Assembly (NCBI GenBank): GCA_030450655.1
Contig: JAKDIE010000017.1
Coordinates: forward strand, 1-11,729
Direction: 5' to 3'
DNA: 11,729 bases
Source of the DNA: Ruaniaceae bacterium
Lineage (GTDB): Bacteria; Actinomycetota; Actinomycetes; Actinomycetales; Actinomycetaceae
The notes under the pieces were generated by a model. The model ran no database searches. It saw only the letters and a list, made by a program, of their open reading frames with translations, and was not told the DNA's origin. A program made the position numbers and the translations under genes. Below, piece after piece: positions 1-11,729 of the stretch (position 1 is the first letter of the stretch; each line of letters opens with the position of its first letter).

Positions 1-24
1 GAATCTGGAACTCAAACCGGTGAT

Positions 25-45
25 GTCGTTGGTTTGAACAACGAC
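25..45 (-). terminator. Hairpin downstream of minus-strand tRNA-Val, possible weak terminator
   Basis: A perfect 7-bp inverted repeat (GTCGTTG, 7-base loop, CAACGAC) lies five bases beyond the encoded CCA end of the minus-strand tRNA-Val. Its place directly after the gene fits a terminator or 3' processing element. No T-run follows on the minus strand and the stem is only moderately GC-rich, so intrinsic termination is uncertain. Positions 1-24 show nothing else recognisable. Confidence 0.3.
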
Positions 46-49
46 CTTC

Positions 50-125
50 TGGTGGGCGATACCGGACTCGAACCGATGACCTCTTCCGTGTGAAGGAAGC
101 GCGCTACCAACTGCGCCAATCGCCC
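50..125 (-). tRNA. tRNA-Val (anticodon CAC)
   Basis: The reverse complement folds as a complete cloverleaf. The acceptor stem is GGGCGAT/ATCGCCC, the discriminator base is A (53), and the CCA end is encoded at 50-52. The anticodon stem CTTCC/GGAAG encloses the loop TTCACAC, giving anticodon CAC, which reads the valine codon GUG. The T arm contains GGTTCGA. It is transcribed away from the other three tRNAs and is almost the same gene as the tRNA-Val at 392-466. The two differ at the wobble base, by one base in the D loop, and at a few T-stem and variable-loop positions. It supplies the cognate tRNA for GTG, a common codon in this GC-rich window. Confidence 0.95.
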
Positions 126-138
126 CTGTGACTCGAAG

Positions 139-144
139 ATGTTA
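139..144 (-). promoter_or_regulatory. Candidate -10 box for minus-strand tRNA-Val
   Basis: On the minus strand this reads TAACAT, matching the actinobacterial -10 pattern TAnnnT. It places the transcription start about 7 bases before the tRNA 5' end at 125. No convincing -35 box is seen at 17-18 bases; a TTTCGA lies slightly too far upstream. The call rests on position and the -10 match only. Confidence 0.35.
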
Positions 145-169
145 CCCCAACACGGTGAACGGATCGAAA

Positions 170-200
170 TTGGACGTTCAGCCATCGATCGGGTTAGGCT
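170..200 (+). promoter_or_regulatory. Candidate promoter of the Gly-Cys-Val tRNA operon
   Basis: TTGGAC at 170-175 resembles a -35 box and TAGGCT at 195-200 fits the TAnnnT -10 pattern. The 19-base spacer is longer than ideal. The predicted start near 207 would give a short leader before tRNA-Gly at 220. The 94-base gap between the divergent tRNAs (126-219) has to hold both promoters, which supports a promoter here. The exact boxes are uncertain. Confidence 0.4.
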
Positions 201-219
201 CAATCCCGCAATAGACAGC

Positions 220-292
220 GCGGATGTGGCTCAGTTGGTAGAGCATCACCTTGCCAAGGTGAGGGTCGCGGGTTCGAATCCCGTCATCCGCT
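220..292 (+). tRNA. tRNA-Gly (anticodon GCC)
   Basis: A 73-base cloverleaf with acceptor stem GCGGATG/CATCCGC and discriminator T at 292. The anticodon stem TCACC/GGTGA encloses the loop TTGCCAA, so the anticodon is GCC, reading GGC and GGT. The T arm carries GGTTCGAATCC. The CCA end is not encoded (CGG follows), unlike in the other three tRNAs here, so it must be added by the CCA-adding enzyme. It is the first gene of a three-tRNA transcript, 18 bases ahead of tRNA-Cys. Confidence 0.96.
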
Positions 293-310
293 CGGAGGCT
301 CCGCCTCAGT

Positions 311-384
311 GGTGGCGTGGCCGAGAGGCGAGGCAGCGGCCTGCAAAGCCGTATACACGGGTTCGAATCCCGTCGCCACCTCCA
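311..384 (+). tRNA. tRNA-Cys (anticodon GCA)
   Basis: A cloverleaf with acceptor stem GGTGGCG/CGCCACC, discriminator T at 381 and encoded CCA at 382-384. The anticodon stem GCGGC/GCCGT (one G-T pair) encloses CTGCAAA, so the anticodon is GCA, reading TGC and TGT. The T arm carries GGGTTCGAATCCC. It is the middle gene of the Gly-Cys-Val run, with only 7 bases before tRNA-Val, so the tRNAs must be cut from a common precursor. Confidence 0.96.
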
Positions 385-391
385 CTCCATC

Positions 392-466
392 GGGCGATTG
401 GCGCAGTGGTAGCGCGCTTCCTTGACACGGAAGAGGTCGCTGGTTCGAACCCAGTATCGCCCACCA
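392..466 (+). tRNA. tRNA-Val (anticodon GAC)
   Basis: A cloverleaf with acceptor stem GGGCGAT/ATCGCCC, discriminator A (463) and encoded CCA (464-466). The anticodon stem CTTCC/GGAAG encloses TTGACAC, so the anticodon is GAC, reading GTC and GTT. It closes the tRNA operon, and the terminator hairpin begins three bases after CCA. Its near-twin, with anticodon CAC, is on the opposite strand at 50-125. Confidence 0.96.
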
Positions 467-468
467 AG

Positions 469-497
469 AGGGCCCCGAGTATCGCTCGGGGCCCTTT
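469..497 (+). terminator. Intrinsic terminator of the tRNA operon
   Basis: A perfect 10-bp stem, GGGCCCCGAG (470-479) with CTCGGGGCCC (485-494), has a 5-base loop and is followed by TTT. An A-T pair extends the stem by one. It lies immediately after tRNA-Val. The very GC-rich stem makes this a strong terminator despite the short T-run, and it separates the tRNA operon from the sulfur genes. Confidence 0.85.
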
Positions 498-560
498 GCT
501 GTGCGTGGAGCACGTGCGAAAGTTGGCCCAAACGTCCTATGCCGTTCGTCACATGATCGG

Positions 561-576
561 ATACCCTATGGGGTAT
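561..576 (+). promoter_or_regulatory. CsoR/CstR-like operator upstream of the sulfur genes
   Basis: ATACCC-TATG-GGGTAT is a 16-bp near-palindrome in which 7 of 8 position pairs are complementary. It ends 40 bases before the sqr-like start codon. CsoR-family repressors (CsoR for copper, CstR for persulfide) bind operators built from C-run/G-run inverted repeats flanked by ATA/TAT. The location before a sulfide/sulfur-relay operon favours a CstR-like sensor. It overlaps possible -10 boxes (TACCCT at 562-567; TATGGG at 567-572 with TTCGTC at 545-550), so binding there would block RNA polymerase. No regulator gene is in the window. The rest of 498-616 shows only an 8-bp palindrome GCACGTGC (510-517) and the start-proximal ribosome-binding site. 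Confidence 0.55.
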
Positions 577-616
577 GAATCGGCTAACGAGGGTCGGCTC
601 GACCAAAGGGCAGCAC

Positions 617-1870
617 ATGACTGACATCGTCATCCTCGGGGGCGGCACGGCAGGCACGCTCATCGCGCACTCTTTGCTGAAGCAACCCGGCAGCGACGCG
701 TGGAACATCACGGTCATCGATCGTGACGACGAGCACCATTACCAACCGGGCTACCTCTTCGTCCCGTTCGGCATGATGCCCGCCAAACGCATCGCGAAAC
801 CCCGGCACGAGTTCCTGCCCAAGCGGGTGACGTTCCTCGTAGATGAGGCACGCCGGATCGATCGGGAGCACCGGCTGATCGAACTCGCCTCGGGCGCAAC
901 CATCCATTTCGATCAACTCGTCATCGCCACCGGAACCACGCCCGATCCCACGGCAGTGCCCGGAATGGCCGACGGCGCCCTGTGGTTCAGTAGCGTTTTC
1001 GACTTCTACACGCTCGCGGGAGCGATGGCACTGAAGCCGGCCATCGAGGGCATGAAGAAGGGCCGCATCGTGGTGCACGTGAGCGAGACCCCGATCAAGT
1101 GCCCGGTGGCTCCCCTCGAGTTCGCGTTGCTCGCGCAGGACTACATGCGCAAGAAGGGCCGGGACTGGGAGGTGGACGTGGTGTACGTCACCCCTCTCGA
1201 CGGCGCCTTTACCAAGCCGGTGGCGTCCAAGACCCTCGGGGGATTGCTCTCCGAGCGCGGGATCGAGCAGGTCACGGACTTCCAGGTGGAGAGAATCGAC
1301 AACGATGCGAAGGAGCTCGTGAGCTACGACGGCCGTCGCGTCCCGTTCGATCTCTTGGTGACGGTTCCTCCCAACCGGGGCTCGGACGTCGTCGTCCATT
1401 CAGGACTGGGAGACGAGGCCGGGTTCGTCCCGGTGGACAAGCACACGCTCCAGTCCGAGATCGATCCGGACATCTGGGTGGTGGGCGATGCCACGAATGC
1501 TCCCACGTCCAAAGCCGGCTCGGTGGTGCACTTTGAGGTGGCCTCCTTCATCCCGAACCTGCTGGCGCATATGGCCGGGCGGCGGCTGCCCAGGCGCTTC
1601 GATGGTCACGCCAACTGCTTCATCGAATCGGGCCGGGGCCAGGCCATGCTCCTCGATTTCAACTACGAGCAGGAACCGGTGACGGGAGTGTTCCCCGTGC
1701 CGAAGGTGGGGCCACTGACGCTCCTGAAGCCCTCGGCCATCAACCACGCGTCGAAGCTCGCCTTCGAGGCCGTCTATTGGTACGGGCTGCTCCCAGGACG
1801 CCCGCTGCCGTTCCCGCACGACATGTCACTGGCGGGCAAGAACCTCCCGCCCACCACCCCAGCCCGATAG
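617..1870 (+). CDS. SQR/FCSD-type FAD-dependent sulfide oxidoreductase
   Basis: A 417-residue flavoprotein of the pyridine-nucleotide disulfide oxidoreductase fold, closest in character to sulfide:quinone oxidoreductase and the flavocytochrome c FccB subunit. These oxidise sulfide to zero-valent or polysulfide sulfur and pass electrons to quinone or cytochrome. Visible features are an N-terminal FAD-binding GGGTAGT (residues 8-14), the ATGTTPDP strand-turn near 104-111, Cys162 in KCPVAPLEFA, the second FAD motif VVGDAT near 288-293, and Cys334 in ANCFIE. C162 and C334 are the only cysteines and sit where the redox-active pair of SQR/FccB sits; a third SQR cysteine is absent. Hydrophobic, aromatic C-terminal segments (about 380-400) could dip into the membrane. 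The ATG at 617 was chosen over an in-frame ATG at 575 because AAAGGG lies 6 bases upstream, the FAD motif follows at once, and 575 overlaps the operator. It leads the dsrC-like and dsrE-like genes (9-base gap to the next). Sulfide as substrate is inferred from family and neighbours. Confidence 0.8.
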   Translation: MTDIVILGGGTAGTLIAHSLLKQPGSDAWNITVIDRDDEHHYQPGYLFVPFGMMPAKRIAKPRHEFLPKRVTFLVDEARRIDREHRLIELASGATIHFDQLVIATGTTPDPTAVPGMADGALWFSSVFDFYTLAGAMALKPAIEGMKKGRIVVHVSETPIKCPVAPLEFALLAQDYMRKKGRDWEVDVVYVTPLDGAFTKPVASKTLGGLLSERGIEQVTDFQVERIDNDAKELVSYDGRRVPFDLLVTVPPNRGSDVVVHSGLGDEAGFVPVDKHTLQSEIDPDIWVVGDATNAPTSKAGSVVHFEVASFIPNLLAHMAGRRLPRRFDGHANCFIESGRGQAMLLDFNYEQEPVTGVFPVPKVGPLTLLKPSAINHASKLAFEAVYWYGLLPGRPLPFPHDMSLAGKNLPPTTPAR

Positions 1871-1879
1871 GAGATCGTT

Positions 1880-2197
1880 ATGCCCGTCAACACGTTCCTT
1901 GGACGCCAGATCGACGTCAACGACGAGGGTTTCCTGACGAAGCCGGAGCAATGGGACGAGGAGCTCGCGCGCATGCTCGCGGGCATCGCCGGAGTGGACG
2001 AGATGACCGAGGCACACTGGGCCGCCGTGCGCTTCGTGCGATCCGACATGGTCGCGCCGGGATCATCTCCCACCCTCCACCGGATGCACAAAGTGGGCGG
2101 ACTCAACATCAAGGAACTTTTCGCCCTCTTCCCCGGCAAGCCAGCGAAGAAGCTGGCCTACATCGCCGGCGGACCAAAACCCACCGCGTGCGTCTGA
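1880..2197 (+). CDS. DsrC/TusE-family sulfur carrier protein, single catalytic cysteine
   Basis: A 105-residue protein of the DsrC/TusE/DsvC family, small cytoplasmic carriers that bind sulfur as persulfide or trisulfide on a flexible C-terminal arm. Family signs are residues 12-25 with the pattern D-x-x-GF-L-x-x-x-W, the helix near 77-84 with LFALFPGKPAKK following, and the hallmark tail GGPKPTACV with the penultimate Cys104 (CysA). The second cysteine of true dissimilatory DsrC (CysB, eleven residues earlier) is Ala93, so this is the TusE-like single-cysteine form and cannot make the intramolecular disulfide used by DsrAB sulfite reductase. Length is normal for the family. AGGAG lies 6 bases before the ATG. 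It sits between the sqr-like and dsrE-like genes, implying a sulfur-relay role between them; no tusBCD or dsrAB is present in the window. Confidence 0.88.
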   Translation: MPVNTFLGRQIDVNDEGFLTKPEQWDEELARMLAGIAGVDEMTEAHWAAVRFVRSDMVAPGSSPTLHRMHKVGGLNIKELFALFPGKPAKKLAYIAGGPKPTACV

Positions 2198-2209
2198 AGG
2201 AGATCCAGC

Positions 2210-2818
2210 ATGCCTATCGATGCCAACGGCAACCTCATCCCCGATTTTGGCGACGCCCCCGCGGCCGGCGCGTCCCCCTCCGGATCGCCCGGAACTCCCG
2301 GATTGGCCTACGACGGCCCACGCAAGATGGCGTTCATCTGCTCCAAAGGCAACCTCGACATGGCGTATCCGGCGCTCATCATGGCGAACGCGGCACTTGG
2401 GGAAGGGGTTGAGGTTCACATCTTCTTCACGTTCTGGGGGTTGGACATCGTGGATGTCCGGACTCAGGACACGCTCAAGTTCACTTTCGCGGGCAACACG
2501 GCCATGCACATGCCACAGCTCGAACGCGCCGCCGGGGGGTGGGGGACCAAGTCCTTCCCGCAGGCGATGGCCGCGCTTCCCGGTGTGACTCCGTTTGCCA
2601 CGCACATGATGAAGCAGCAGATGGCGGATCTGGGGATTCCTCCCGTCAAGGAGATGGTGGAGACCGTGGCGGCCCTCGGAGGCAATCTCTGGGCGTGCCG
2701 GCTCACCGTGGACATGATGCAGATCAAGAAGGCCCAGCTCGATCCCGCGGTGAAGGACATCATCTCGGCGGCCGATTTCATCGAGCTCTCGGCCGGCGCC
2801 CAGATCGTTTTCGTCTGA
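2210..2818 (+). CDS. DsrE2-like (DsrE/F/H family) sulfurtransferase
   Basis: A 202-residue protein of the DsrE/DsrF/DrsH-like family, closest to the DsrE2 branch. These proteins take up sulfane sulfur on cysteine and hand it to TusA- or DsrC-type carriers. Residues 1-37 are Pro/Gly/Ser-rich and probably disordered. The Rossmann-like core starts near 38 with ICSKGNLDMAYPALIMANAA (Cys44 in the SKG.LDMA.PA signature), then HIFFTFWGLDI (70-80). A Met-rich stretch follows (THMMKQQMADLGIPP, 131-145), then WACRLTVDMMQI (161-172) with Cys163. C44 and C163 are the only cysteines. No transmembrane helices are seen, although many DsrE2 proteins have them, so it is likely cytoplasmic. AAGGAG lies 7 bases before the ATG. 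It is the last gene of the sulfur operon; its natural partner is the DsrC/TusE-like protein encoded 12 bases upstream. Confidence 0.83.
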   Translation: MPIDANGNLIPDFGDAPAAGASPSGSPGTPGLAYDGPRKMAFICSKGNLDMAYPALIMANAALGEGVEVHIFFTFWGLDIVDVRTQDTLKFTFAGNTAMHMPQLERAAGGWGTKSFPQAMAALPGVTPFATHMMKQQMADLGIPPVKEMVETVAALGGNLWACRLTVDMMQIKKAQLDPAVKDIISAADFIELSAGAQIVFV

Positions 2819-2837
2819 GACTCCAACGCGCGGCTCT

Positions 2838-2866
2838 TTGGATGGCGCGCGCGGCGGCGATAGCCT
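2838..2866 (+). promoter_or_regulatory. Promoter of the thrS-lipid operon
   Basis: TTGGAT (2838-2843) and TAGCCT (2861-2866) are separated by exactly 17 bases and match the -35 and TAnnnT -10 patterns of the main actinobacterial sigma factor. The start would be near 2873, giving a leader of about 27 bases before the GTG of thrS. That leader is too short for a T-box. The 81-base gap otherwise holds an 8-bp inverted repeat, GAGACTCC (2817-2824) with GGAGTCTC (2890-2897), whose second arm covers the thrS ribosome-binding site. Confidence 0.6.
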
Positions 2867-2899
2867 TGAGCGGTTAGTCCCCGAGTCAAGGAGTCTCCC

Positions 2900-4891
2900 G
2901 TGAGCCATGCGCCACTACCCGTTCGTACCGAACAGCGCACCACAGGTACGGAGCTCTTTGCCACGGATCGCAGCATCGTGGCCATGCGGATCGCCGGAGA
3001 GTTGAAGGATCTCTTCGTGGAGATCGAGGCCGACGTCGAGGTGGAACCAGTCACGATCGATTCTCCCGATGGTCTGGCGATCCTCAGGCACTCCGCCGCG
3101 CACGTGCTGGCCCAGGCGGTGCAGCAGGTCAACCCGGATGCCAAGCTCGGGATCGGCCCACCGATCACGGACGGCTTCTACTACGACTTCGACGTGGAGA
3201 CCCCGTTCACGCCCGAGGACTTGCGCGCGCTTGAGAAGGCGATGCAGCGCATCGTCAGGGAGGGCCAGACCTTCCACCGCCGCGTGGTGGCTGACGATGA
3301 CGCACGCGAAGAACTCGCCGGCGAACCGTACAAGCTCGAGCTGATCGGCCTGAAGGGTTCGGGCGCCGAGAGCGCGGCCGAGGGCGCCTCTGTGGAGGTG
3401 GGCGCCGGCGAACTGACGATGTACGACAACGTGCGGCGCGGCGGCGCCGTGGCATGGAAGGACCTCTGCCGCGGTCCCCACCTGCCCTCGACCAAGCTGA
3501 TCGGTAACGGCTTCAAGCTGATGCGTTCGGCCGCCGCGTACTGGCGAGGCAGCGAGAAGAACCCGCAACTCCAGCGCATCTACGGCAAGGCATGGCCCAC
3601 GCAGTACGAGCTCACCGCGTACACCGAGCGCCTGGCGGAGGCCGAGCGGCGCGATCACCGCCGCCTCGGCACCGAGCTCGATCTGTTCTCCTTCCCGGAC
3701 GAGATCGGATCCGGCCTGCCGGTGTTCCACCCGAAGGGTGCGATGGTCCGCATGGAGATGGAGGAGTACTCGCGCCGCCGCCACGTGGAGGCCGGCTACT
3801 CCTTCGTCAACACCCCGCACATCACGAAGGCGCAGCTCTTCGAGACGTCCAGGCACCTCGACTGGTATTCCGAGGGCATGTACCCCCCGATGCGGATGGA
3901 CGAGGAGCGGGACGCCGCCGGGAACGTCACCAAGCAGGGCCAGGACTACTACCTGAAGCCCATGAACTGCCCCATGCACAACCTGGTGTACCGCTCCCGC
4001 GGCCGCTCCTACCGCGATCTTCCGCTGCGCCTGTTCGAGTTCGGTGCCGTGTACCGCTACGAGAAGTCCGGTGTGGTTCACGGCCTCACCCGGGCCCGCG
4101 GCTTCACGCAGGACGACGCGCACATCTACTGCTCCCGCGAGCAGATGCGCGAGGAGCTCGCGTCCCTGCTGACCTTCGTGCTCGATCTGCTGAAGGACTA
4201 CGGCCTCGACGAGTTCTACCTGGAGCTCTCAACTCGCGATCCGGAGAAGTCCGTGGGCGATGAGGAGACCTGGGACGTGGCCACGCGCGTCCTTGAGGAG
4301 GTGGCCACGGAGTCCGGGCTGGACCTCGTCCCGGATCCGGGCGGCGCCGCCTTCTACGGCCCCAAGATCTCCGTCCAGGCGAAGGACGCGATCGGACGCA
4401 CCTGGCAGCTCTCCACCATCCAACTGGACTTCTTCGAGCCCGAACTCTTCGATCTCGAGTACACGGCACCCGATGGCACACGCCAGCGCCCCGTGATGAT
4501 CCACCGCGCACTCTTCGGTTCGATCGAACGCTTCTTCGGCGTGCTCCTCGAGCACTACGCGGGCGCGTTCCCGGCCTGGCTTGCCCCCGTGCAGGTCACC
4601 GCCATCCCCGTGGCGGACGTGTTCGACGACTACCTGAAGAACGTGGTGGCACAGCTCGAGGCGCAGGGGATCCGCGCCGTGGTCGATACCTCCGATGATC
4701 GCTTCGGGAAGAAGATCCGCAACGCCGCCGCACAGAAGGTGCCGTTCGTGCTGATCGCCGGGGGAGAGGACGTGGAGGCCGGAGCGGTCTCCTTCCGCTA
4801 CCGCGGCGGCGAGCAGAAGAACGGCATCCCGGTGGAGGAGGCCATCTCCGAGATCGTGGAACACGTGCGTTCACGCAGGAACACGCTGTGA
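2900..4891 (+). CDS. thrS: Threonyl-tRNA synthetase
   Basis: A 663-residue class II synthetase that charges tRNA-Thr in the cytoplasm. Domain order is complete: a short TGS region (about 14-56); the editing/SAD domain with HSAAH (64-68) and C190-x3-H194; and the class II core, including KPMNCPMH with zinc ligand Cys357. Motif 2 follows around 386-405 ([19 protein letters not shown]), then the second zinc ligand His408 in DDAHIYC. Motif 3 carries His535 in [13 protein letters not shown], and the anticodon-binding domain runs from about 565 to the end ([12 protein letters not shown]). C357/H408/H535 are the usual zinc triad. The GTG start at 2900 follows AAGGAG by 6 bases. The stop overlaps the next gene's start (GTGA). 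It heads the phosphatidylinositol operon, a conserved actinobacterial order. Confidence 0.98.
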
Positions 4892-5430
4892 GCGAAGGCC
4901 CTCGTAATTTCGCCGGCACCCCCGATGCGTTCGAGCGGCTCTGGACGCCGCACCGGATGGTGTACATCGGCGGGGAGAATAAGCCCGACGACGACCGGGC
5001 CGAGTCCTGCCCCTTCTGCGCGATCCCGGCCCGTTCGGACGAGGACGGACTCATCGTGGCGCGCGGAGAGACGGCCTTTGTGGTGTTGAACCTGTACCCG
5101 TACAACCCGGGGCACCTGCTGGTGTGCCCCTACCGCCACGTTCCCAACTACACGGACCTTGAGGCCGCGGAGCGCGCGGAGTTCGGTGAACTCACCGCAC
5201 ACGCGATTCGCGCCCTCGCGGCGGCATCCCACCCCTCAGGCTTCAATACCGGCATGAATCAGGGCGAGATCGCCGGCGCAGGCATCGCGGGCCACCTCCA
5301 TCAGCACGTGGTGCCGCGGTGGCAGGGGGATTCGAACTTCTTCCCGATCGTGGCGCAGACCAAGGCACTGCCGCAGGTCCTCGGGGACACCCGGGACCTC
5401 GTCGCCGCAGCGTGGGAGCGCACATGCTAG
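4888..5430 (+). CDS. HIT-family nucleotide hydrolase/phosphorylase
   Basis: A 180-residue histidine-triad protein. The catalytic triad is [11 protein letters not shown] at 135-145 (H136, H138, H140), with His140 the expected nucleophile. CPFC at 41-44 suggests a zinc site, and the [19 protein letters not shown] segment (66-84) is the typical HIT core. Relatives in this genomic slot are annotated as HIT proteins resembling diadenosine tetraphosphate (Ap4A) phosphorylases or hydrolases (Rv2613c in M. tuberculosis, from memory). A link with ThrS is reasonable because synthetases make Ap4A as a side product, but this is inference. The GTG start overlaps the thrS stop by 4 bases and AGGA lies 7 bases upstream, so translation is probably coupled. 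Its own stop lies inside the start of pgsA. Confidence 0.92.
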
Positions 5431-6032
5431 GGGAGCGCGGGCGCTCGGTTGCGAACGCCGTCCTGGGCCCCGTCGCGCGCCTTTTCGTGAAGATGGGGAT
5501 TTCTCCCGACGCCGTGACGTACGCGGGCACCGCGCTGGGCATCGCCGTCTCCTTCGGCATTCTCGCGCGCGGGCACCTGGTGGCCGGCCCGCTGCTGCTG
5601 GCATTCATCCTGGTGACGGACTCGATCGATGGGCAGATGGCGCGGCAGACGGGCCGCTCCTCGGCGTGGGGGGCGTTCCTCGACTCCACCCTCGACCGTG
5701 CGACGGACGCCGCCGTGTTCCTCTCCATCGCGCTGGCTTCTCAGAGTTTCGACGGCGTGCTCGGCACCGTCACGTACGGCCTGGCCCTCGCGATCGTGCC
5801 CCTCGCGATGCTCGTCTCGTACACGCGCGCACGCGGTGAAGCCGTGGGAGCGAACCCGTCCCGCGGCCTGGCCGAGAGAACCGACCGCCTCGTGGTCGCG
5901 CTGGCGGGTTGCCTCGCGGTCGGGCTGGGAGCCCCCGTGTGGATCCTCACGATCGCGCTTGGATACGTGGCGATCGCCAGCACGATCACGGTGGTCCAGC
6001 GGATGATCGCGGTCAAGAAGCAGGTCGCCTAG
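5424..6032 (+). CDS. pgsA: Phosphatidylinositol phosphate synthase (CDP-alcohol phosphotransferase)
   Basis: A 202-residue integral membrane enzyme of the CDP-alcohol phosphatidyltransferase family. The signature D-x2-D-G-x2-A-R-x8-G-x3-D-x3-D is perfect: D66, D69, G70, A73, R74, G83, D87, D91. About six hydrophobic helices are visible. In actinobacteria the member in this gene order joins CDP-diacylglycerol with inositol-3-phosphate to give phosphatidylinositol phosphate, the precursor of PI and PI-mannosides. The substrate is inferred from the patA and pimA neighbours, since the motif alone does not separate it from phosphatidylglycerophosphate synthase. The ATG at 5424 overlaps the HIT stop by 7 bases and has GGGAG 5 bases upstream; an in-frame ATG at 5319 would add an unrelated Gly/Pro/Arg-rich extension and was rejected. 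Confidence 0.92.
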   Translation: MLGERGRSVANAVLGPVARLFVKMGISPDAVTYAGTALGIAVSFGILARGHLVAGPLLLAFILVTDSIDGQMARQTGRSSAWGAFLDSTLDRATDAAVFLSIALASQSFDGVLGTVTYGLALAIVPLAMLVSYTRARGEAVGANPSRGLAERTDRLVVALAGCLAVGLGAPVWILTIALGYVAIASTITVVQRMIAVKKQVA

Positions 6033-6965
6033 GTGGATGCTGGAAACGTATTCACCCTCGCCTGGCGGGTGCTCCCCAGGCTGCCAGAAGGCCTGGTCAC
6101 GGCCGCCTTCGCGGCTGGTGCGGACTACCTGTGGCGGCGGCGCATGCCGCAGGTGCGGCAGCTCGAGGCGAACCTGCGGCGAGTGCTACCCGCGGCGTCC
6201 GAGAAGGAGTTGCGCGCCACGAGCCGCGCGGCCACGCGCTCCTACGCGCAGTACTACGCGGAGATTTTCACCGCGCCGGGACTGAGTCGCGAGGAGATTC
6301 TGCGGCGAATCACGATCGAATCGCCTCCTGGGTTCACGCAGAACGTCGCCGAGGGGAGCGTGGTGCTCGCCCTCGGCCACACCGGGAACTGGGACTATGC
6401 CGGCTTCGGCGTGTCACACGAGTTGAACACGGTGCTCACGGTGGCCGAGGTTCTCGAGCCGCCGGAGATCTTCGAGGACTTCCTGGCCTTTCGTGAGGCG
6501 TTCGGGATCGAGATCATTCCGCTTCGCAAGGGCACGAACGTCTTCAGCCAGTTGCGCACCCGGGCGCGGGAGAGCAAGCGCATCGTGGCGTTGCTCGCCG
6601 ATCGCGATCTCACGCACAACGGTATCGAGGTGGAACTCGTGGGGCACCGCGCCCGCGTGGCCGCCGGTCCCGCCGCGCTCTCACACAGCCTCAAGATTCC
6701 GCTGTACTACGCGGGAATTCGGCACACGCGAGTGCCGGCACCTGCGTTCATGCGGCCGCGCCGCACGGTGGGTGGCATCACTGTCACCTTCATCGGGCCA
6801 ATCAGCGTGGAGCCGGGGCCGCGCGCCGTCGAACGCCTGTCCCAAGCATGGGCAGATGTGATGAGCGAGTGGCTTCGCCAGTACCCGGAAAGTTGGCACA
6901 TGCTCCAGAAGGTCTTTGTGGCGGATCTCGATCCCGATCGACTCACGGAGGCACGGAGCGCATGA
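6033..6965 (+). CDS. patA: Phosphatidylinositol mannoside acyltransferase (LPLAT family)
   Basis: A 310-residue acyltransferase of the lysophospholipid acyltransferase / lipid A acyltransferase-like family. The catalytic H-x4-D motif is HTGNWD (H116, D121). The LLADRDLTHNGIEVELVGHR region (187-206) and the AGPAALSHS turn that follows are typical of the family, as is the C-terminal SWHMLQKVFVADL. In mycobacteria PatA moves a palmitoyl group from acyl-CoA to the mannose of PIM1/PIM2 at the cytoplasmic face of the membrane. The GTG start follows the pgsA stop with no gap, and the stop overlaps pimA as ATGA. Position between pgsA and pimA makes the role secure. The start lacks a strong ribosome-binding site (GCAGG upstream) and probably relies on coupling. 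Confidence 0.93.
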   Translation: MDAGNVFTLAWRVLPRLPEGLVTAAFAAGADYLWRRRMPQVRQLEANLRRVLPAASEKELRATSRAATRSYAQYYAEIFTAPGLSREEILRRITIESPPGFTQNVAEGSVVLALGHTGNWDYAGFGVSHELNTVLTVAEVLEPPEIFEDFLAFREAFGIEIIPLRKGTNVFSQLRTRARESKRIVALLADRDLTHNGIEVELVGHRARVAAGPAALSHSLKIPLYYAGIRHTRVPAPAFMRPRRTVGGITVTFIGPISVEPGPRAVERLSQAWADVMSEWLRQYPESWHMLQKVFVADLDPDRLTEARSA

Positions 6966-8113
6966 GAGTTGGAATCGTCTGTCCCTACTCGTGGGACACT
7001 CCCGGTGGCGTGCAGTTTCACGTCCGGGATCTCGCCGAGACACTCATCAGGAAGGGCCACCATGTTTCGGTGCTTGCGCCATCCTCGGAGGAGACGGAGA
7101 TCCCCGAGTACCTCGTGAGTGCGGGCAGGAGCATCCCGATCCCCTACAACGGTTCGGTGGCGCGCCTCAACTACGGTTGGAGGACCTCCCGGCTCGTGGG
7201 GGAGTGGCTGGAGAGCGGCCGATTCGATCTCCTCCACCTTCACGAGCCGATCACCCCCTCACTGAGCATCCAGGCCCTCGCGCAGGCCGAGATACCAGTG
7301 GTGGCCACCTTCCACTCGGCTCAGGAGAGATCGCGTGCGCTGAACTTCGTCTCCCCGATGGTGCAGCCACTCCTGGAGAAGATCACCGCCCGCATCGCCG
7401 TCTCGGCGGAAGCGGAGAGAACTGTGGCCGAGCACCTCGGTGGCGACGCGTACGTGATTCCCAACGGCGTTTTCGTGCGCCCGTTCGCCACCGCCACGCC
7501 CGATTCACGGTGGGCGGGCCAGCGGCACGGGGGCTCGCCCACGATCGCATTCCTGGGGCGCCTCGACGAGTCCAGGAAGGGCCTGCCGGTCTTTGCGAAC
7601 GCGATCCATCGGGTGCACGCGGCGCGGCCCGAGGCGCGCTTCCTCATCGCCGGAAAGGGGGACGCGGAGGAGTCCCGCGCCGATCTTGCCGGCCTTCCTG
7701 TCGAGTTTCTCGGCGGGATCTCGGACAGCGACAAGGCCGCGCTGTTCGCATCGGTGGATCAGTACGTGGCACCCCAGACGGGCGGCGAATCGTTCGGGAT
7801 CGTGCTGGTCGAGGCGATGGCCGCCGGTGCGAGGGTGATTGCCTCGAGCATCCAGGCATTTGTGGATGTGCTGGACGGCGGAGCGGCGGGCGTCCTTTTC
7901 GATGTTGGAGACTCCGATTCGCTGGCACGTGCCATCCTCGCCGAACTCGATGCACCCCGCGGGCCGATGGATCGCCACGCAGCGCAGTGGGTGCAGCAGT
8001 ACGACTGGGGTGTGGTCACCGAACGGATCGAGAATGTGTACGAGGTGGCGATTCAGTCCGCCGCGCCTCGGCCGCACAGAAGCGTCCTGGATCGCTTGAG
8101 GAGAAAGCCGTGA
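6962..8113 (+). CDS. pimA: GDP-mannose-dependent phosphatidylinositol alpha-mannosyltransferase
   Basis: A 383-residue GT4 glycosyltransferase (GT-B fold) that transfers mannose from GDP-mannose to the 2-position of the inositol of PI, the first committed step to PIM, LM and LAM glycolipids. Visible elements: the acceptor-site loop TPGGVQFH (13-20), HLHEPITPS (92-100), His118 in ATFHSA, the C-terminal donor domain from about 195 with GRLDESRKG (R200, E203, K206), and the E-x7-E motif E276/E284 in GGESFGIVLVEA. His118, the R/K pair and the first Glu align with residues known in M. smegmatis PimA. The ATG at 6962 overlaps the patA stop and is immediately followed by MRVGIVCPYSWDTPGG; the upstream in-frame ATG at 6848 falls inside patA and was rejected. 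Confidence 0.95.
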   Translation: MRVGIVCPYSWDTPGGVQFHVRDLAETLIRKGHHVSVLAPSSEETEIPEYLVSAGRSIPIPYNGSVARLNYGWRTSRLVGEWLESGRFDLLHLHEPITPSLSIQALAQAEIPVVATFHSAQERSRALNFVSPMVQPLLEKITARIAVSAEAERTVAEHLGGDAYVIPNGVFVRPFATATPDSRWAGQRHGGSPTIAFLGRLDESRKGLPVFANAIHRVHAARPEARFLIAGKGDAEESRADLAGLPVEFLGGISDSDKAALFASVDQYVAPQTGGESFGIVLVEAMAAGARVIASSIQAFVDVLDGGAAGVLFDVGDSDSLARAILAELDAPRGPMDRHAAQWVQQYDWGVVTERIENVYEVAIQSAAPRPHRSVLDRLRRKP

Positions 8114-8673
8114 ACGAGCTATGGGTGGCGCTCGGCGCCGTCGTCCTGATCGCGATGATCTTGCACATCGTCCACCGTGCCACGCGCCTGGACCGTCTTC
8201 ATAACGATGTGCTCCGTTCGCGCGCCACGCTGGAACGCCTGCTCTCGAACCGGGCGCACATCGCGCTCGAGATGGTCGCGTTCGGCGAGTTCGATCTCGC
8301 ATCCGCACTCATCGTTGCCGATGCCGCCACGCGGGCGCTCGACGATCAACGTCACCTGGTGCCCGATGGGCTACAGACGGACACGGTCCCGCCCCCGGCG
8401 TTAGCCCCTGAAGGCACGCACTCGCGCGCAATGGTCGAGAGCGAACTCTCGCAGGTGCTGCGGGATGTGCTTGCCGAGCCCGAGACTCGGCAATCTGATC
8501 TCGCCCACAGGTTGCTCGATACGTGGGAGCAGGTCGCCATGGCCTGCCAGCTTCACAACCAGAAGGTCACACTCACGCGGCGGCTGCGTTCGCGCCCATT
8601 CGTGCGCCTTTTCCGGCTGGCAGGAGTCACACCCATGCCCGTCGCCTTCGACATGGACGATGCCCGGCCCTGA
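8110..8673 (+). CDS. Membrane-anchored LemA-like protein downstream of pimA
   Basis: A 187-residue protein of unknown function. Residues 3-22 form one transmembrane helix (LWVALGAVVLIAMILHIV), followed by a basic/charged helical region (RLDRLHNDVLRSRATLERLL, 26-45). A variable Pro-rich middle (about 88-103) separates this from a C-terminal segment, ACQLHNQKVTLTRRLRSRP (145-163), then FDMDD. The combination of an N-terminal anchor, a helical core and an N-x2-V-x3-R pattern near the end resembles LemA. The same domain sits after pimA in many actinobacteria; in mycobacteria (Rv2609c, from memory) it appears joined to a NUDIX domain, which here is a separate gene at 9809. The GTG start overlaps the pimA stop (GTGA), with GAGGAG 6 bases upstream. 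It is likely the last gene of the PI operon. Confidence 0.85.
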   Translation: MNELWVALGAVVLIAMILHIVHRATRLDRLHNDVLRSRATLERLLSNRAHIALEMVAFGEFDLASALIVADAATRALDDQRHLVPDGLQTDTVPPPALAPEGTHSRAMVESELSQVLRDVLAEPETRQSDLAHRLLDTWEQVAMACQLHNQKVTLTRRLRSRPFVRLFRLAGVTPMPVAFDMDDARP

Positions 8674-8686
8674 GCTCGCTCTCGCC

Positions 8687-8702
8687 TAGTCTTCTCCTCA
8701 TG
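8687..8702 (+). promoter_or_regulatory. -10 box giving a leaderless prsW-like transcript
   Basis: TAGTCT (8687-8692) fits TAnnnT, and the A of the ATG at 8700 lies 8 bases after its last base, where transcription would start. The bases before the ATG (CTTCTCCTC) contain no Shine-Dalgarno sequence. Together these predict a leaderless mRNA, common in actinobacteria. No clear -35 box is present. The promoter sits in the only gap (8674-8699) between the PI operon and the protease gene. Confidence 0.5.
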
Positions 8703-9812
8703 AGCATTACGCCGTTCTCGCAGTCCCAAGGATGGGCGCCGGTACGCCAACGCTCCACCGCCACCATGGTGGCCGAGATCATCGGGATCGGTGTGGGGCT
8801 GTGGGGGATCGTGACGATGCTGAATATCGTCAGCTCCGAAGGAGGTGCGGGCGCCACGGTGTTTGCCGGGATTCTGGCGTTTGTGCCACTGCTGGTGGTG
8901 CTGGGCGCAGTCCACTGGATCGATCGGTGGGAGCCCGAACCGAAGGCCACACTCGCGTTCGCGTTCGTGTGGGGCGCGGGCGTTGCCACCCTCGTGTCAC
9001 TCTTCTTCAACTCGATCCTCGCCGAGATCCTCGGGGTCTCGGGCATCGACTCAACATCGCAACTGGCGGTCTCGGTGGCGATTGGTGCGCCGTTCGTCGA
9101 GGAACTCACGAAGGGACTCGGCGTCCTCTTGATCTTCCTTGTCCAGCGCCGCCGCTTTGACGGACCGGTTGACGGGGTCGTGTACGGGGCAGTCGTGGCC
9201 GCAGGCTTCGCGTTCGTGGAGAATATTCTCTACTTCGTCCAGTACTCGGACCAGATCGGCGGCGTGTTCCTTGGACGCGCGATCATGTCGCCCTTCGCGC
9301 ACGTGATCTTCACCGCGATGACGGGGCTCATGCTGGGCGTGGCCGCGCGCTCCCAGTCCCGGCACGCATGGTTGGGGTACTTCCCCCTCGGCCTGACTCT
9401 CGCGATGCTGCTGCACGCGTTGTGGAACTTCTCGACCTTGTCCACGCATTACATGACGCTGTACGTGCTCCTCCAGGTTCCCCTCTTCATCGCGCTGATC
9501 GCGTTGGTGTACTGGCTTCGGAGAATGGAGCGAGATGTTCTCCGCCATCGCCTCGGCGAGTACGCTCAGGCCGGGTGGTTCTCGCCGAGCGAGGTTCACA
9601 TGCTCACGGACTTCCGCGAGCGGCGCCGAGCCCGCACGTGGGCGGCACAACGTGGCCGAAAGGCGGCGATGGCGGCCTTCCAGAAGGCCTCCACGGATCT
9701 CGCGTTCCAGCGTGAACGCCATGCAGCAGGTAGCGTCTCGGCGAGTTCCCACGCCGATCAGCAGCACCTCCTCGCGCAGGTCACGCAGGCGCGTGCGGAC
9801 GTCTTCGCATGA
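8700..9812 (+). CDS. PrsW-family intramembrane metalloprotease
   Basis: A 370-residue polytopic membrane protein with about eight hydrophobic helices between residues 23 and 273 and a hydrophilic, Arg/Ala-rich cytoplasmic tail (about 275-370). Family motifs are present: FVEELTKG (E134, E135, K138; EExxK), FAFVENILYF (E174, N175; the E-N pattern), SPFAHVIFTAMTG (His201) and LLHALWNFS (His239). These residues form the presumed metal/catalytic site of the PrsW/CPBP-like group. PrsW of B. subtilis cleaves the anti-sigma factor RsiW; the target here is unknown and no sigma/anti-sigma pair is in the window. The ATG at 8700 was preferred over an upstream in-frame ATG at 8523, which lies inside the preceding gene; ATG 8766 (M23) is a later alternative. 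The stop overlaps the NUDIX gene (ATGA). Confidence 0.9.
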   Translation: MSITPFSQSQGWAPVRQRSTATMVAEIIGIGVGLWGIVTMLNIVSSEGGAGATVFAGILAFVPLLVVLGAVHWIDRWEPEPKATLAFAFVWGAGVATLVSLFFNSILAEILGVSGIDSTSQLAVSVAIGAPFVEELTKGLGVLLIFLVQRRRFDGPVDGVVYGAVVAAGFAFVENILYFVQYSDQIGGVFLGRAIMSPFAHVIFTAMTGLMLGVAARSQSRHAWLGYFPLGLTLAMLLHALWNFSTLSTHYMTLYVLLQVPLFIALIALVYWLRRMERDVLRHRLGEYAQAGWFSPSEVHMLTDFRERRRARTWAAQRGRKAAMAAFQKASTDLAFQRERHAAGSVSASSHADQQHLLAQVTQARADVFA

Positions 9813-10327
9813 GCGTGAACTGGGATGAGTGGGACGAGCGGGACGGGATCCCGTTCCGGGAAGGTGCGCGGGTGATCCTGCTGGACGACGACGATCGCGT
9901 CCTCATGATCCGTGGGCATGACTTCGGCAAGCCCGATCGATCCTGGTGGTTCACACCCGGCGGGGGAGTGATGCCCGGCGAGGAATCCCGTGCCGCCGCG
10001 CGCCGAGAACTGCGCGAGGAGACCGGAATCGCCGTTGCGCACCTCGTGGGCCCTGTTGCCGAACGCGATGCGATCTTCGATTTCGCGCTCATCACCTGCC
10101 GTCAGCACGAGTTGTTCTACTGCGGCAGGACGTCGTCGACCACTATCGACGTTTCCGGTCACACCGAAATGGAGAAGGATCTCCTCGACGAGTTCACGTG
10201 GTGGCGTGCGGGCGAGTTGGCTCAGGCCCGCGCGGCGGGCGAAACGCTCTATCCCCCCGATATGCCGGAGCTCGTCTCGTGGCTCGCCCGCGGGTGGGAC
10301 GGCGAGCTCCGCACTCTCGGCGAGTAG
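9809..10327 (+). CDS. NUDIX hydrolase
   Basis: A 172-residue protein with a complete NUDIX box, G-x5-E-x7-REL-x-EE-x-G-I, at residues 52-74 (G52, E58, R66, E67, E70, E71, G73). The preceding strands VILLDDDDRVLMIRG and the WWFTPGGG entry are typical. These enzymes cleave nucleoside diphosphates linked to another group, using Mg2+ held by the Glu residues. The substrate cannot be told from sequence; MutT-like, sugar-nucleotide or dinucleotide substrates are all possible. The ATG overlaps the prsW-like stop by 4 bases and lacks a clear ribosome-binding site, so translation is likely coupled to it. The related domain is joined to the LemA-like domain in some actinobacteria, which hints at a shared function with the gene at 8110. 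Confidence 0.93.
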   Translation: MSVNWDEWDERDGIPFREGARVILLDDDDRVLMIRGHDFGKPDRSWWFTPGGGVMPGEESRAAARRELREETGIAVAHLVGPVAERDAIFDFALITCRQHELFYCGRTSSTTIDVSGHTEMEKDLLDEFTWWRAGELAQARAAGETLYPPDMPELVSWLARGWDGELRTLGE

Positions 10328-10330
10328 AAT
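10325..10330 (+). promoter_or_regulatory. Candidate -10 box for yebC-ruvC
   Basis: TAGAAT overlaps the stop codon of the NUDIX gene and matches TAnnnT closely. A second possibility, TACAGT, lies at 10334-10339. No matching -35 box is evident. Either would give a leader of roughly 20-30 bases with a strong AGGAGG (10357-10362) four bases before the yebC ATG. Confidence 0.4.
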
Positions 10331-10366
10331 CAATACAGTTCCCGACTCCATCTCTCAGGAGGTCCC

Positions 10367-11125
10367 ATGTCAGGCCACTCCAAGTGGGCGACCACGAAGC
10401 ACAAGAAGGCGGCGATCGACGCCAAGCGAAGCAAGCTTTTCGCGCGCCTCACCAAGAACATCGAGGTTGCCGCCCGCACAGGGGGCGGAGACCCTGCCGG
10501 CAACCCCACGCTCTACGATGCGATCCTGAAGGCGAAGCGAAATTCGTTGCCTGCGGACAACATCGACCGCGCCGTGAAGCGCGGTTCCGGCCTCGTGGCC
10601 GGCGGCGCCGATTACGAGACGATCATGTATGAGGGGTACGGCCCCGGCGGGATCGCGGTCCTCGTGGAGTGCCTCACGGACAACCGCAACCGCGCGGCCT
10701 CGGATGTGCGCGTGGCCTTCACGCGCAACGGCGGCCAGATGGCGGACCCAGGTTCGGTCTCGTACCTCTTTTCGCGCCGCGGCGTGGTGGTGGTACCCAA
10801 GACGGGTGAACTGACTGAGGACGATCTGCTGCTCGCTGTCCTCGACGCCGGAGCCGAGGAAGTTGAGGATCTCGGGGACGCCTTTGAGATCCAGTCCGAG
10901 CCCAGCGAAATCGTGGCCGTGCGCACGGCCCTGCAGGGGGCCGGGTACGATTACGAGTCTGCCGAGGCGCAGTTCGTTCCGGCCACCGAGATCGAGGTGG
11001 ACATCGATGGTGCCCGCAAGATCCTGAAGCTGATTGATGCATTGGAGGATTCCGACGACGTCCAGAACGTCTTCGCGAACTTCGATGCGTCCGACGAGGT
11101 GCTCGCCGCCCTCGACGACGAGTAA
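10367..11125 (+). CDS. yebC: YebC/PmpR-family protein (DUF28)
   Basis: A 252-residue protein of normal family length. It opens with the hallmark [20 protein letters not shown] and continues with the family's [18 protein letters not shown] (53-70) and the [19 protein letters not shown] region. The C-terminal domains include FEIQSEPSE and the closing NVFANFD segment. YebC proteins were long annotated as transcriptional regulators (PmpR); more recent work links the family to translation through stretches difficult for the ribosome, and both views rest on homologues. AGGAGG sits 4 bases before the ATG. It is 13 bases ahead of ruvC, a common bacterial pairing. Confidence 0.97.
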
Positions 11126-11138
11126 GCCGCTTCGTCCG

Positions 11139-11729
11139 ATGCGCATCCTCGGCATCGACCCTGGACTCACCAGATGCGGTGTGGGTGTCATCGAGGCCGG
11201 GCGCACCCCGCGTGCGGTTGCCTACGGCGTGATCCGCACGGATTCGGACTCGCCGATCGAAGCGCGCCTGCTGGCGGTGGCCAACGAGATTGATGAGTGG
11301 TTGGACACGTACGCGCCGGATGCGGTCGCGGTAGAACGCGCCTTCGCCCAACACAACGTCACCACGGTGATGGGGGTGGCACAGGTCGCCGGACTCGCGA
11401 TCGTGGCCGCGGCGCGCCGTGAGATCCCCGTTGCCATGCATACGCCTTCGGAAGTCAAAGCCGCTGTCACAGGGTACGGCAATGCGCCGAAGGCTCAAGT
11501 GCAACACATGGTGGCGCGCATTCTCGGGATGGATGCCATACCGCAGCCTGCGGATGCGGCGGACGCCCTCGCGCTCGCCCTGACTCAGCAGTTTCGCCAG
11601 GGTTCACCCGCCGCTGCCGGGTCCGGAGCGCAGACTCCCGCGCAGCGTGCGTGGGCCGAGGCCGAACGTGCGGCGCGCCGTGGCGGGCGGCGCCCTCGAC
11701 GACTCGACGCCGGAGATCCTCGCCGTGCG
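11139..11729 (+). CDS. ruvC: Holliday junction endonuclease RuvC (3' end outside window)
   Basis: 197 codons run open to the window edge without a stop, so the gene is partial at its 3' end. RuvC is the nuclease that cuts Holliday junctions symmetrically in the RuvABC complex. The acidic tetrad is visible: D7 in ILGIDPG, E66 in VAVERAF, and D139 and D142 in [12 protein letters not shown]. Residues 71-83 ([13 protein letters not shown]) and the [20 protein letters not shown] segment are typical. The nuclease core ends near 155. The tail beyond is Ala/Gln then Arg-rich ([14 protein letters not shown]) and already exceeds the roughly 170-190 residues usual for RuvC. ATG 11139 has no evident ribosome-binding site; the 13-base gap after yebC suggests reinitiation. 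ruvA would be expected next. Confidence 0.95.

Follow-up and report, generated by a model that had tools for sequence, protein, structure and literature searches.

What does a bacterium do with the sulfur of sulfide when an enzyme that oxidises sulfide is encoded next to sulfur carriers? The question is raised by the window analysed here, a whole stretch of 11,729 nucleotides from a Ruaniaceae bacterium (assembly GCA_030450655.1, contig JAKDIE010000017.1, positions 1 to 11,729, forward strand). Positions 561 to 2818 hold genes for a sulfide:quinone oxidoreductase (SQR), a DsrC-family protein and a DsrE2-family protein. A preliminary description, made from the letters of the window, read these as a compact sulfur module with the sulfur passing from the flavoprotein to DsrE2 and then to DsrC. 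From comparisons of sequences, genomes and predicted structures, the operon is likely to be a stand-alone cassette for sulfide oxidation and sulfur relay, in which SQR would pass sulfur to DsrC with DsrE2 as a relay, facing the cytoplasm and inducible. Its features are as follows.

617..1870, + strand: SQR, a type III sulfide:quinone oxidoreductase, cysteine form of NF049943, 417 amino acids (family score, tree).
1100..1102, + strand: SQR Cys162 codon (KCPVAP), invariant in 81/81 rows.
1616..1618, + strand: SQR Cys334 codon TGC, within the motif HANC, without variation in module loci; TGA here in selenocysteine-type relatives.
1880..2197, + strand: DsrC/TusE-family one-cysteine sulfur carrier, 105 amino acids (family score; CysB absent in 91/91 module rows).
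2189..2191, + strand: DsrC Cys104 codon, CysA, the penultimate residue, in 91/91 module rows.
2210..2818, + strand: divergent DsrE2-family (PF13686) sulfurtransferase-like protein, 202 amino acids (family score, structure model).
2339..2341, + strand: DsrE2 Cys44 codon, not universal (61/78 rows).
2696..2698, + strand: DsrE2 Cys163 codon, invariant in 78/78 rows; TGA here in three distant DsrE2 relatives.
561..576, no strand: perfect palindrome ATACCC-TATG-GGGTAT, lying 40 nt ahead of the SQR start codon; predicted operator of the CsoR/CstR type.

The three open reading frames (ORFs) are confirmed as consecutive on the + strand, with gaps of 9 nt (SQR/DsrC) and 12 nt (DsrC/DsrE2). Each is preceded by a Shine-Dalgarno-like stretch, AAAGGG for SQR, AGGAG for DsrC and AAGGAG for DsrE2, so the gene order and ribosome-binding sites first described are seen directly. 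An ATG at 575 was rejected as the SQR start, it overlaps the palindrome and the longer start is not conserved. A scan of the window for promoters and terminators gave nothing usable.

The SQR scores 549.2 bits against NF049943 over residues 3-409, above the curated cut-off of 525. This family is named 'type III sulfide quinone reductase, selenoprotein subtype'. The window codon at the selenocysteine position is TGC, and SQRs of the cysteine form likewise score above the cut-off. The nearest solved sequences are SQRs, human SQOR being the closest relative in the PDB (E 7e-38), and SQOR reaches 134 bits against 42 bits for the best NADH dehydrogenase. The C162 motif KCPVAP aligns with KCAGAP of human SQOR, and C162 and C334 are conserved in 81/81 aligned rows. 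The HxxU motif given for NF049943 has its counterpart in H331-A-N-C334, in the part of the source available (PMC13188914). The spacing of 172 residues between C162 and C334 equals that of the Cys159/Cys331 pair of a type III SQR (PMC10989961, available in part). The flavoprotein therefore belongs with SQRs and not with non-sulfide oxidoreductases, as the preliminary description had supposed.

A profile of 24 SQRs was compared with GTDB species genomes, and the best 80 of at least 587 confirmed stretches form our locus set. The order SQR-DsrC-DsrE2 on one strand is kept in 77/80 loci, the other three reach contig ends no more than 151 bases beyond the last gene seen. Chance adjacency of the three genes is thereby excluded. 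By their record titles 49 loci are from Actinomycetota, 24 from Bacteroidota and three from Verrucomicrobiota, with one each from Planctomycetota, Acidobacteriota, Deinococcota and Chlorobiota, the single-locus phyla resting on titles of metagenome-assembled genomes. The phrase 'in an actinobacterium', used at first, is true of the window and understates a spread over seven phyla. The Deinococcota locus (L031) falls among Actinomycetota SQRs in the tree, which may reflect transfer or mis-binning. DsrC is a single-copy gene in 19 of 20 module genomes, that copy lying in the module, and is present twice in one. In 18/80 loci SQR and DsrC are more than 400 bases apart, and two ORFs tested in such gaps match DUF1641, one just at the cut-off. 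DUF1641-like genes between SQR and DsrC are seen in L030 and L042 (Pfam) and in L089, L090, L126, L127 and L128 (own profile). In L088 the module is immediately followed by another, more distantly related SQR-like gene (7987-9081, - strand).

Co-occurrence was counted over family cut-offs in samples of 198 Actinomycetota and 148 Bacteroidota genomes. SQR is present in 20 and DsrC in 26 of the Actinomycetota genomes; all 20 with SQR have DsrC, against 6 of the 178 without. The genomes G049, G068, G087 and G136, which have DsrC without SQR, all carry dsrA. G189 has DsrC and dsrA with its SQR split at contig ends, and G154 holds the module with the SQR frame broken by a TAA (L092, 5510-6634), which may be decay or an assembly error. 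In G063 the DsrC match is below the cut-off. Fourteen of the 20 Actinomycetota SQRs are of the cysteine type, and all 14 have DsrC next to SQR (with an insert in two) and DsrE2 after it; together with the 77 loci they confirm that relatives keep the three genes together and in this order. dsrA is over the cut-off in 0/14 of these genomes. The other six SQRs have one in-frame TGA, and five of these genomes carry dsrA; in the remaining one (G055) a two-cysteine DsrC is found on the opposite strand, at a distance of about 400 bases.

Among the Bacteroidota 40/148 genomes have SQR, 39 of them with DsrC, and DsrC occurs in 0/108 of the others. The 39 include G253, with two short DsrC fragments only, and G237, with DsrC pieces spread over three contigs. 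dsrA is present in 25 of the 40 SQR genomes and in none of the 13 where DsrC adjoins SQR; DsrE2 adjoins in the 7/7 of these 13 that were checked. Fisher's test of SQR with DsrC gives p = 2e-22 in Actinomycetota and 5e-35 in Bacteroidota, uncorrected for the relatedness of the genomes. Genomes with SQR-like matches below the cut-off (at most 372 bits; for example G147, G126, G115 and G027) lack DsrC; a TGA is also seen within weaker SQR-like matches. The DsrE2 family is over the cut-off in 84/198 Actinomycetota genomes and is therefore not the specific partner of SQR.

The window DsrC scores 91 bits against PF04358 (cut-off 24.9) and 67 bits against TIGR03342 (cut-off 53.5), a family which covers DsrC and TusE together; against the TusE equivalog PRK11508 it reaches 56 bits, below the cut-off of 191. 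C104, the CysA position, is invariant in 80/80 rows, and in 91/91 once further loci are added. The CysB column holds A, S or T in 91/91 module rows, so the single cysteine first reported for the window is general to the module. In genomes of the dsr type this column is C in 21/28 DsrC rows, a gap in three and S or V in four. Canonical DsrC requires CysB for the DsrC trisulfide. Lacking it, module DsrC should not form an intramolecular trisulfide.

The window DsrE2 scores 105 bits against PF13686 (cut-off 25); for the DsrE2 equivalog NF047629 it reaches 97 bits, short of the curated 210, which marks it as a divergent DsrE2. Its predicted model (mean predicted local distance difference test score 86, predicted template modelling score (pTM) 0.72) matches the DsrE-family structures 2qs7 and 3pnx. 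C163 is invariant in 78/78 rows. Cys44 or Cys163 had been named as the sulfur acceptor; conservation supports Cys163, and Cys44, present in 61/78 rows, was rejected as a general site.

Of the partners reported as missing from the window, dsrA and DsrH/TusB were sought in 46 module genomes of relatives (20 locus genomes, 14 further Actinomycetota including G154, and 12 further Bacteroidota). dsrA is over the cut-off in 0/46, searched with a dsrA model that did give matches in the two samples (dsrB was not searched), and DsrH/TusB is over the cut-off in 0/46, so the absence extends to genome level. TusA is found in 20/46 and not in 26/46, and was rejected as an obligatory next carrier. The final acceptor in relatives is reached by neither the DsrAB nor the TusBCD route. 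No conserved acceptor gene lies downstream in the 80 loci, where clustering of the flanks, with stop-to-stop ORFs as simple gene calling is poor in high-GC DNA, yielded lineage-local genes and regulators only. Antisense ORF clusters in these flanks were set aside as artefacts.

SQR and DsrC are fused in one frame in P0056 (= L001), P0120 and L078. The fusions need two changes on a 46-row tree and are grouped as one in 0/200 bootstrap trees, by which the fusion is read as having arisen at least twice. DsrC-DsrE2 fusions occur in none of the 80 loci. By reading of the sequences the proteins have no evident signal peptide, and a fused DsrC domain suggests that the SQR active site faces the cytoplasm, contrary to the periplasmic orientation in the cable-bacteria drawing (PMC13293266). 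In a structure model of the fusion (pTM 0.82) the SQR part best matches human SQOR; as the model comes with no list of contacts, it speaks neither for nor against docking. On the basis of the fusions and of the co-occurrence we favour DsrC, rather than DsrE2, as the direct partner of SQR.

In a quick maximum-likelihood tree built from 106 SQRs, a branch with full support separates the 92 module rows from eight cysteine-type Bacteroidota SQRs without the module and six TGA-type SQRs, each of these two groups forming one clade. Seven of these eight Bacteroidota genomes carry dsrA; G284 shows neither dsrA nor DsrC. The side without the module pairs with mostly dsrA-carrying genomes and two-cysteine DsrC, the clade of the window with one-cysteine DsrC. 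A DsrC tree of 119/122 rows (three short ones dropped) does not separate the groups, module rows needing three changes and the dsr group having 53% support. It has too few columns, so the clean two-clade picture is one of SQR alone, from a quick tree. In G358, a dsrA-carrying Bacteroidota genome, four consecutive genes share a strand: SQR (from the side without the module), a CbiA/CobQ-like gene that by its position would be dsrN, then dsrC and dsrA. Cysteine-type SQRs next to the dsr cluster of dsrA-carrying Bacteroidota genomes are seen with a CbiA-like gene and dsrC (L113, 8137-11430), and with NrfD/Fe-S, molybdopterin oxidoreductase, TauE, DsrE2 and dsrC genes (L114, 5998-16919).

The TGA of the selenocysteine-type SQRs lies at the column of window C334 in 6/6 rows, a seventh row (L095) ends before it. 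Hairpins behind five of these codons have z-scores of -0.7 to -2.35 in RNA folding, so the RNA evidence for selenocysteine is modest. Full-length SelB is over the cut-off in 5/6 TGA-type genomes; several cysteine-type genomes also have SelB over the cut-off. Among the Actinomycetota loci of this type (L081-L086), a tusD/C/B-like (dsrEFH) set and aprA lie near L081, at least a tusD/dsrE-like gene lies near L082, and in L083 the two neighbouring genes that were tested belong neither to the tusDCB/dsrEFH nor to the aprA kind. An in-frame TGA also occurs at the column of window C163 in three DsrE2 (PF13686) genes of dsrA-carrying Actinomycetota genomes, within IPUQMTMD (L133, 526, + strand; L134, 286, - strand; L135, 524, + strand). 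These are probably selenocysteine forms of DsrE2. A hairpin lies 3' of the TGA; the relative L136 has Cys at that position and folds a similar hairpin, so this RNA evidence is weak. Neither PF13686 nor DsrE2 occurs in the main text of a 2026 selenoproteome review (PMC13188914). Exchange of Cys for selenocysteine is expected at reactive nucleophiles, and the in-frame TGA of relatives suggests that SQR C334 and DsrE2 C163 are probably catalytic.

The palindrome ATACCC-N4-GGGTAT, not mentioned in the preliminary description, starts at the first base of the feature and is the sole match to this motif in the window (561-576; 0 expected). Of the Actinomycetota loci, 22/49 have a site with at least 11/12 matches in the 150 nt ahead of SQR, against 0.12 expected from the frequency of such sites in the remainder of these loci (shuffles were also run); the count is 0/24 in Bacteroidota and 0 in the seven loci of other phyla. 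We take this motif to be a CsoR/CstR-type operator. CsoR-family genes near five modules (L003, 10534-11040; L037, 5407-5709; L005, 5628-5924; L018, 8726-9091; L021, 9020-9385) keep two cysteines and lack the copper-sensing His, presumably the signature of CstR. The palindrome is predicted to be a CsoR/CstR operator from the operator type and from these genes. The CsoR-like proteins of L079 and L091 have the copper-sensing His, and NCBIfam gives the L003 protein no CstR assignment. Further palindromes lie near the CsoR-family genes of L003, L005 and L037, and a DUF302 gene is found in L037 (5684-6163). A CsoR-type palindrome is also seen away from SQR in L082 (just before a tusD-like ORF), L085 and L086. 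A Crp/Fnr-like gene, one of which was tested, is common to eleven Bacteroidota loci, mostly just upstream. The palindrome leads us to favour detoxification or sulfur relay over energy metabolism, as had been offered from the start.

These observations suggest the following pathway. Membrane-associated SQR would oxidise HS-, pass two electrons to quinone and be left with a persulfide on C162/C334, a step proposed from the family and the conserved cysteines. The persulfide sulfur would then move to DsrC Cys104, probably at a cytoplasm-facing SQR active site, as co-occurrence, gene order and the natural fusions suggest. DsrE2 Cys163 would exchange sulfur with DsrC, like DsrEFH in organisms with the dissimilatory sulfite reductase (DSR) pathway, and could stand either between SQR and DsrC or after DsrC. 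Candidate final acceptors are a low-molecular-weight thiol, polysulfide, a dioxygenase and biosynthesis. In Actinomycetota persulfide would probably induce the operon by acting on a CstR-like repressor that binds the palindrome.

Several points weigh against this pathway. At the 11/12 threshold 27/49 Actinomycetota loci and all 24 Bacteroidota loci lack the palindrome ahead of SQR, and no CstR gene is seen in the window. The module loci were picked by SQR similarity, as the best 80 of at least 587. Two Bacteroidota SQR genomes are without a full DsrC (fragments in G253, none in G284). In the AlphaFold model of a fusion, residues 419-472 form a disordered linker, and the placement of DsrC relative to SQR is left free. 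In the available part of a study of cable bacteria, the type III SQR is drawn with its active site towards the periplasm, and sulfur reaches DsrC through TusA and DsrEFH, not directly (PMC13293266).

The best surviving alternative, which we regard as possible and on balance doubtful, is the order first described: SQR releases polysulfide or a persulfidated small thiol, which is taken up by DsrE2 and then by DsrC as terminal carrier. Transfer from persulfidated DsrEFH to DsrC occurred in the cable-bacteria system and the reverse did not, in the part of that source available (PMC13293266). DsrE2 follows DsrC in 14/14 cysteine-type Actinomycetota modules, and the dsrEFH-like set stands beside the selenocysteine-type SQR in L081, with at least tusD in L082. 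However, the fusions join SQR to DsrC, with no DsrC-DsrE2 fusion in the 80 loci, and co-occurrence is specific to DsrC, the DsrE2 family being common in genomes without SQR.

A biosynthetic relay, in which sulfane sulfur from SQR would be used, by way of a TusE-like DsrC, to thiolate tRNA or to make cofactors, is unlikely. A single cysteine, at CysA, is common to TusE and module DsrC, and TIGR03342 groups the two. Against this stand the PRK11508 score, the lack of DsrH/TusB in 46/46 and of TusA in 26/46 module genomes, and the lack of any generally conserved neighbour beyond the cassette that hints at biosynthesis. It is very improbable that the flavoprotein is another quinone-linked oxidoreductase, similar to type II NADH dehydrogenase (NDH-2), whose neighbours act on its product: the Pyr_redox_2 fold is common to both and NDH-2-type proteins are also matched (including for a relative's model), but the NF049943 score, the lead of SQOR over the NADH dehydrogenase and the invariant cysteine pair with its spacing (PMC10989961, available in part) led us to reject a non-SQR flavoprotein.

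The type III SQR family (NF049943) appears to be coupled to DsrC, the window being one instance of its DSR-free form. More broadly, and tentatively, the whole family, with Cys or selenocysteine, might load sulfane sulfur directly onto DsrC on the cytoplasmic side, one form mostly feeding DSR through two-cysteine DsrC and the other being a DSR-free cassette of SQR, optional DUF1641, one-cysteine DsrC and DsrE2 in loci assigned by title to seven phyla. If this is true, SQR would have in DsrC a physiological sulfur acceptor that had not been recognised before. In our judgement the natural acceptor and the membrane orientation of SQR are open in many bacteria, and a DsrC-linked and DsrC-fused family makes both testable. 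With the cassette, heterotrophic Actinomycetota and Bacteroidota would be capable of a sulfide oxidation that surveys based on dsrAB overlook, and dsrC by itself would be no marker of the DSR pathway. The one-cysteine DsrC would be a natural simplification, in which persulfide carriage is separated from trisulfide chemistry.

Around the module, four tRNA genes lie on its 5' side (window 50-466), Val(cac) on the - strand and Gly(gcc), Cys(gca) and Val(gac) on the + strand. On its 3' side (window 2900-11729) family scores identify thrS, phosphatidylinositol phosphate synthase and a phosphatidylinositol mannoside acyltransferase, with HIT-family ATP adenylyltransferase-like, glycosyltransferase and Nudix proteins below cut-offs and YebC- and RuvC-like ORFs by reading of the translations. 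The lipid-synthesis genes are consistent with an actinobacterial origin.

No description of an SQR-DsrC-DsrE2 module was found in the open-licence texts searched, where the spelling 'sulfide:quinone' may escape, nor in the available parts of PMC13188914, PMC12013277, PMC13293266, PMC12345210, PMC10989961 and PMC10504309. Related systems are known. The model for cable bacteria likewise has a type III SQR that sends sulfur towards DsrC through a DsrE-type transferase, a type II DsrEFH; in the part available its SQR faces the periplasm, and it includes TusA, DsrAB and a YeeE-like transporter (PMC13293266), whereas the module genomes are without dsrA and 26/46 are without TusA.

The window SQR belongs to the same curated family as the selenocysteine and cysteine forms of type III SQR, and H331-A-N-C334 matches the HxxU motif. 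Its TGA-type relatives have a two-cysteine DsrC located elsewhere, in mostly dsrA-carrying genomes, while the window has Cys and a linked one-cysteine DsrC and DsrE2. SQR, a DsrE-type sulfurtransferase and DsrC are shared with the reverse DSR pathway (TusA/DsrEFH to DsrC to DsrAB), in contrast to which the 46 module genomes have no dsrA over the cut-off and module DsrC has no CysB. A one-cysteine DsrC-family end carrier is also found in the TusBCD-TusE relay of tRNA thiolation, where IscS/TusA is the sulfur source. In the module the source would be SQR, and DsrE2 replaces TusBCD, no TusB being found in the 46 genomes. In the cst operon of Staphylococcus an SQR is under the control of CstR, a persulfide-sensing repressor of the CsoR family, and has CstA and CstB as partners. 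The cassette resembles this operon in having an SQR under predicted CsoR-family control, and differs from it in that DsrC and DsrE2 take the place of CstA and CstB.

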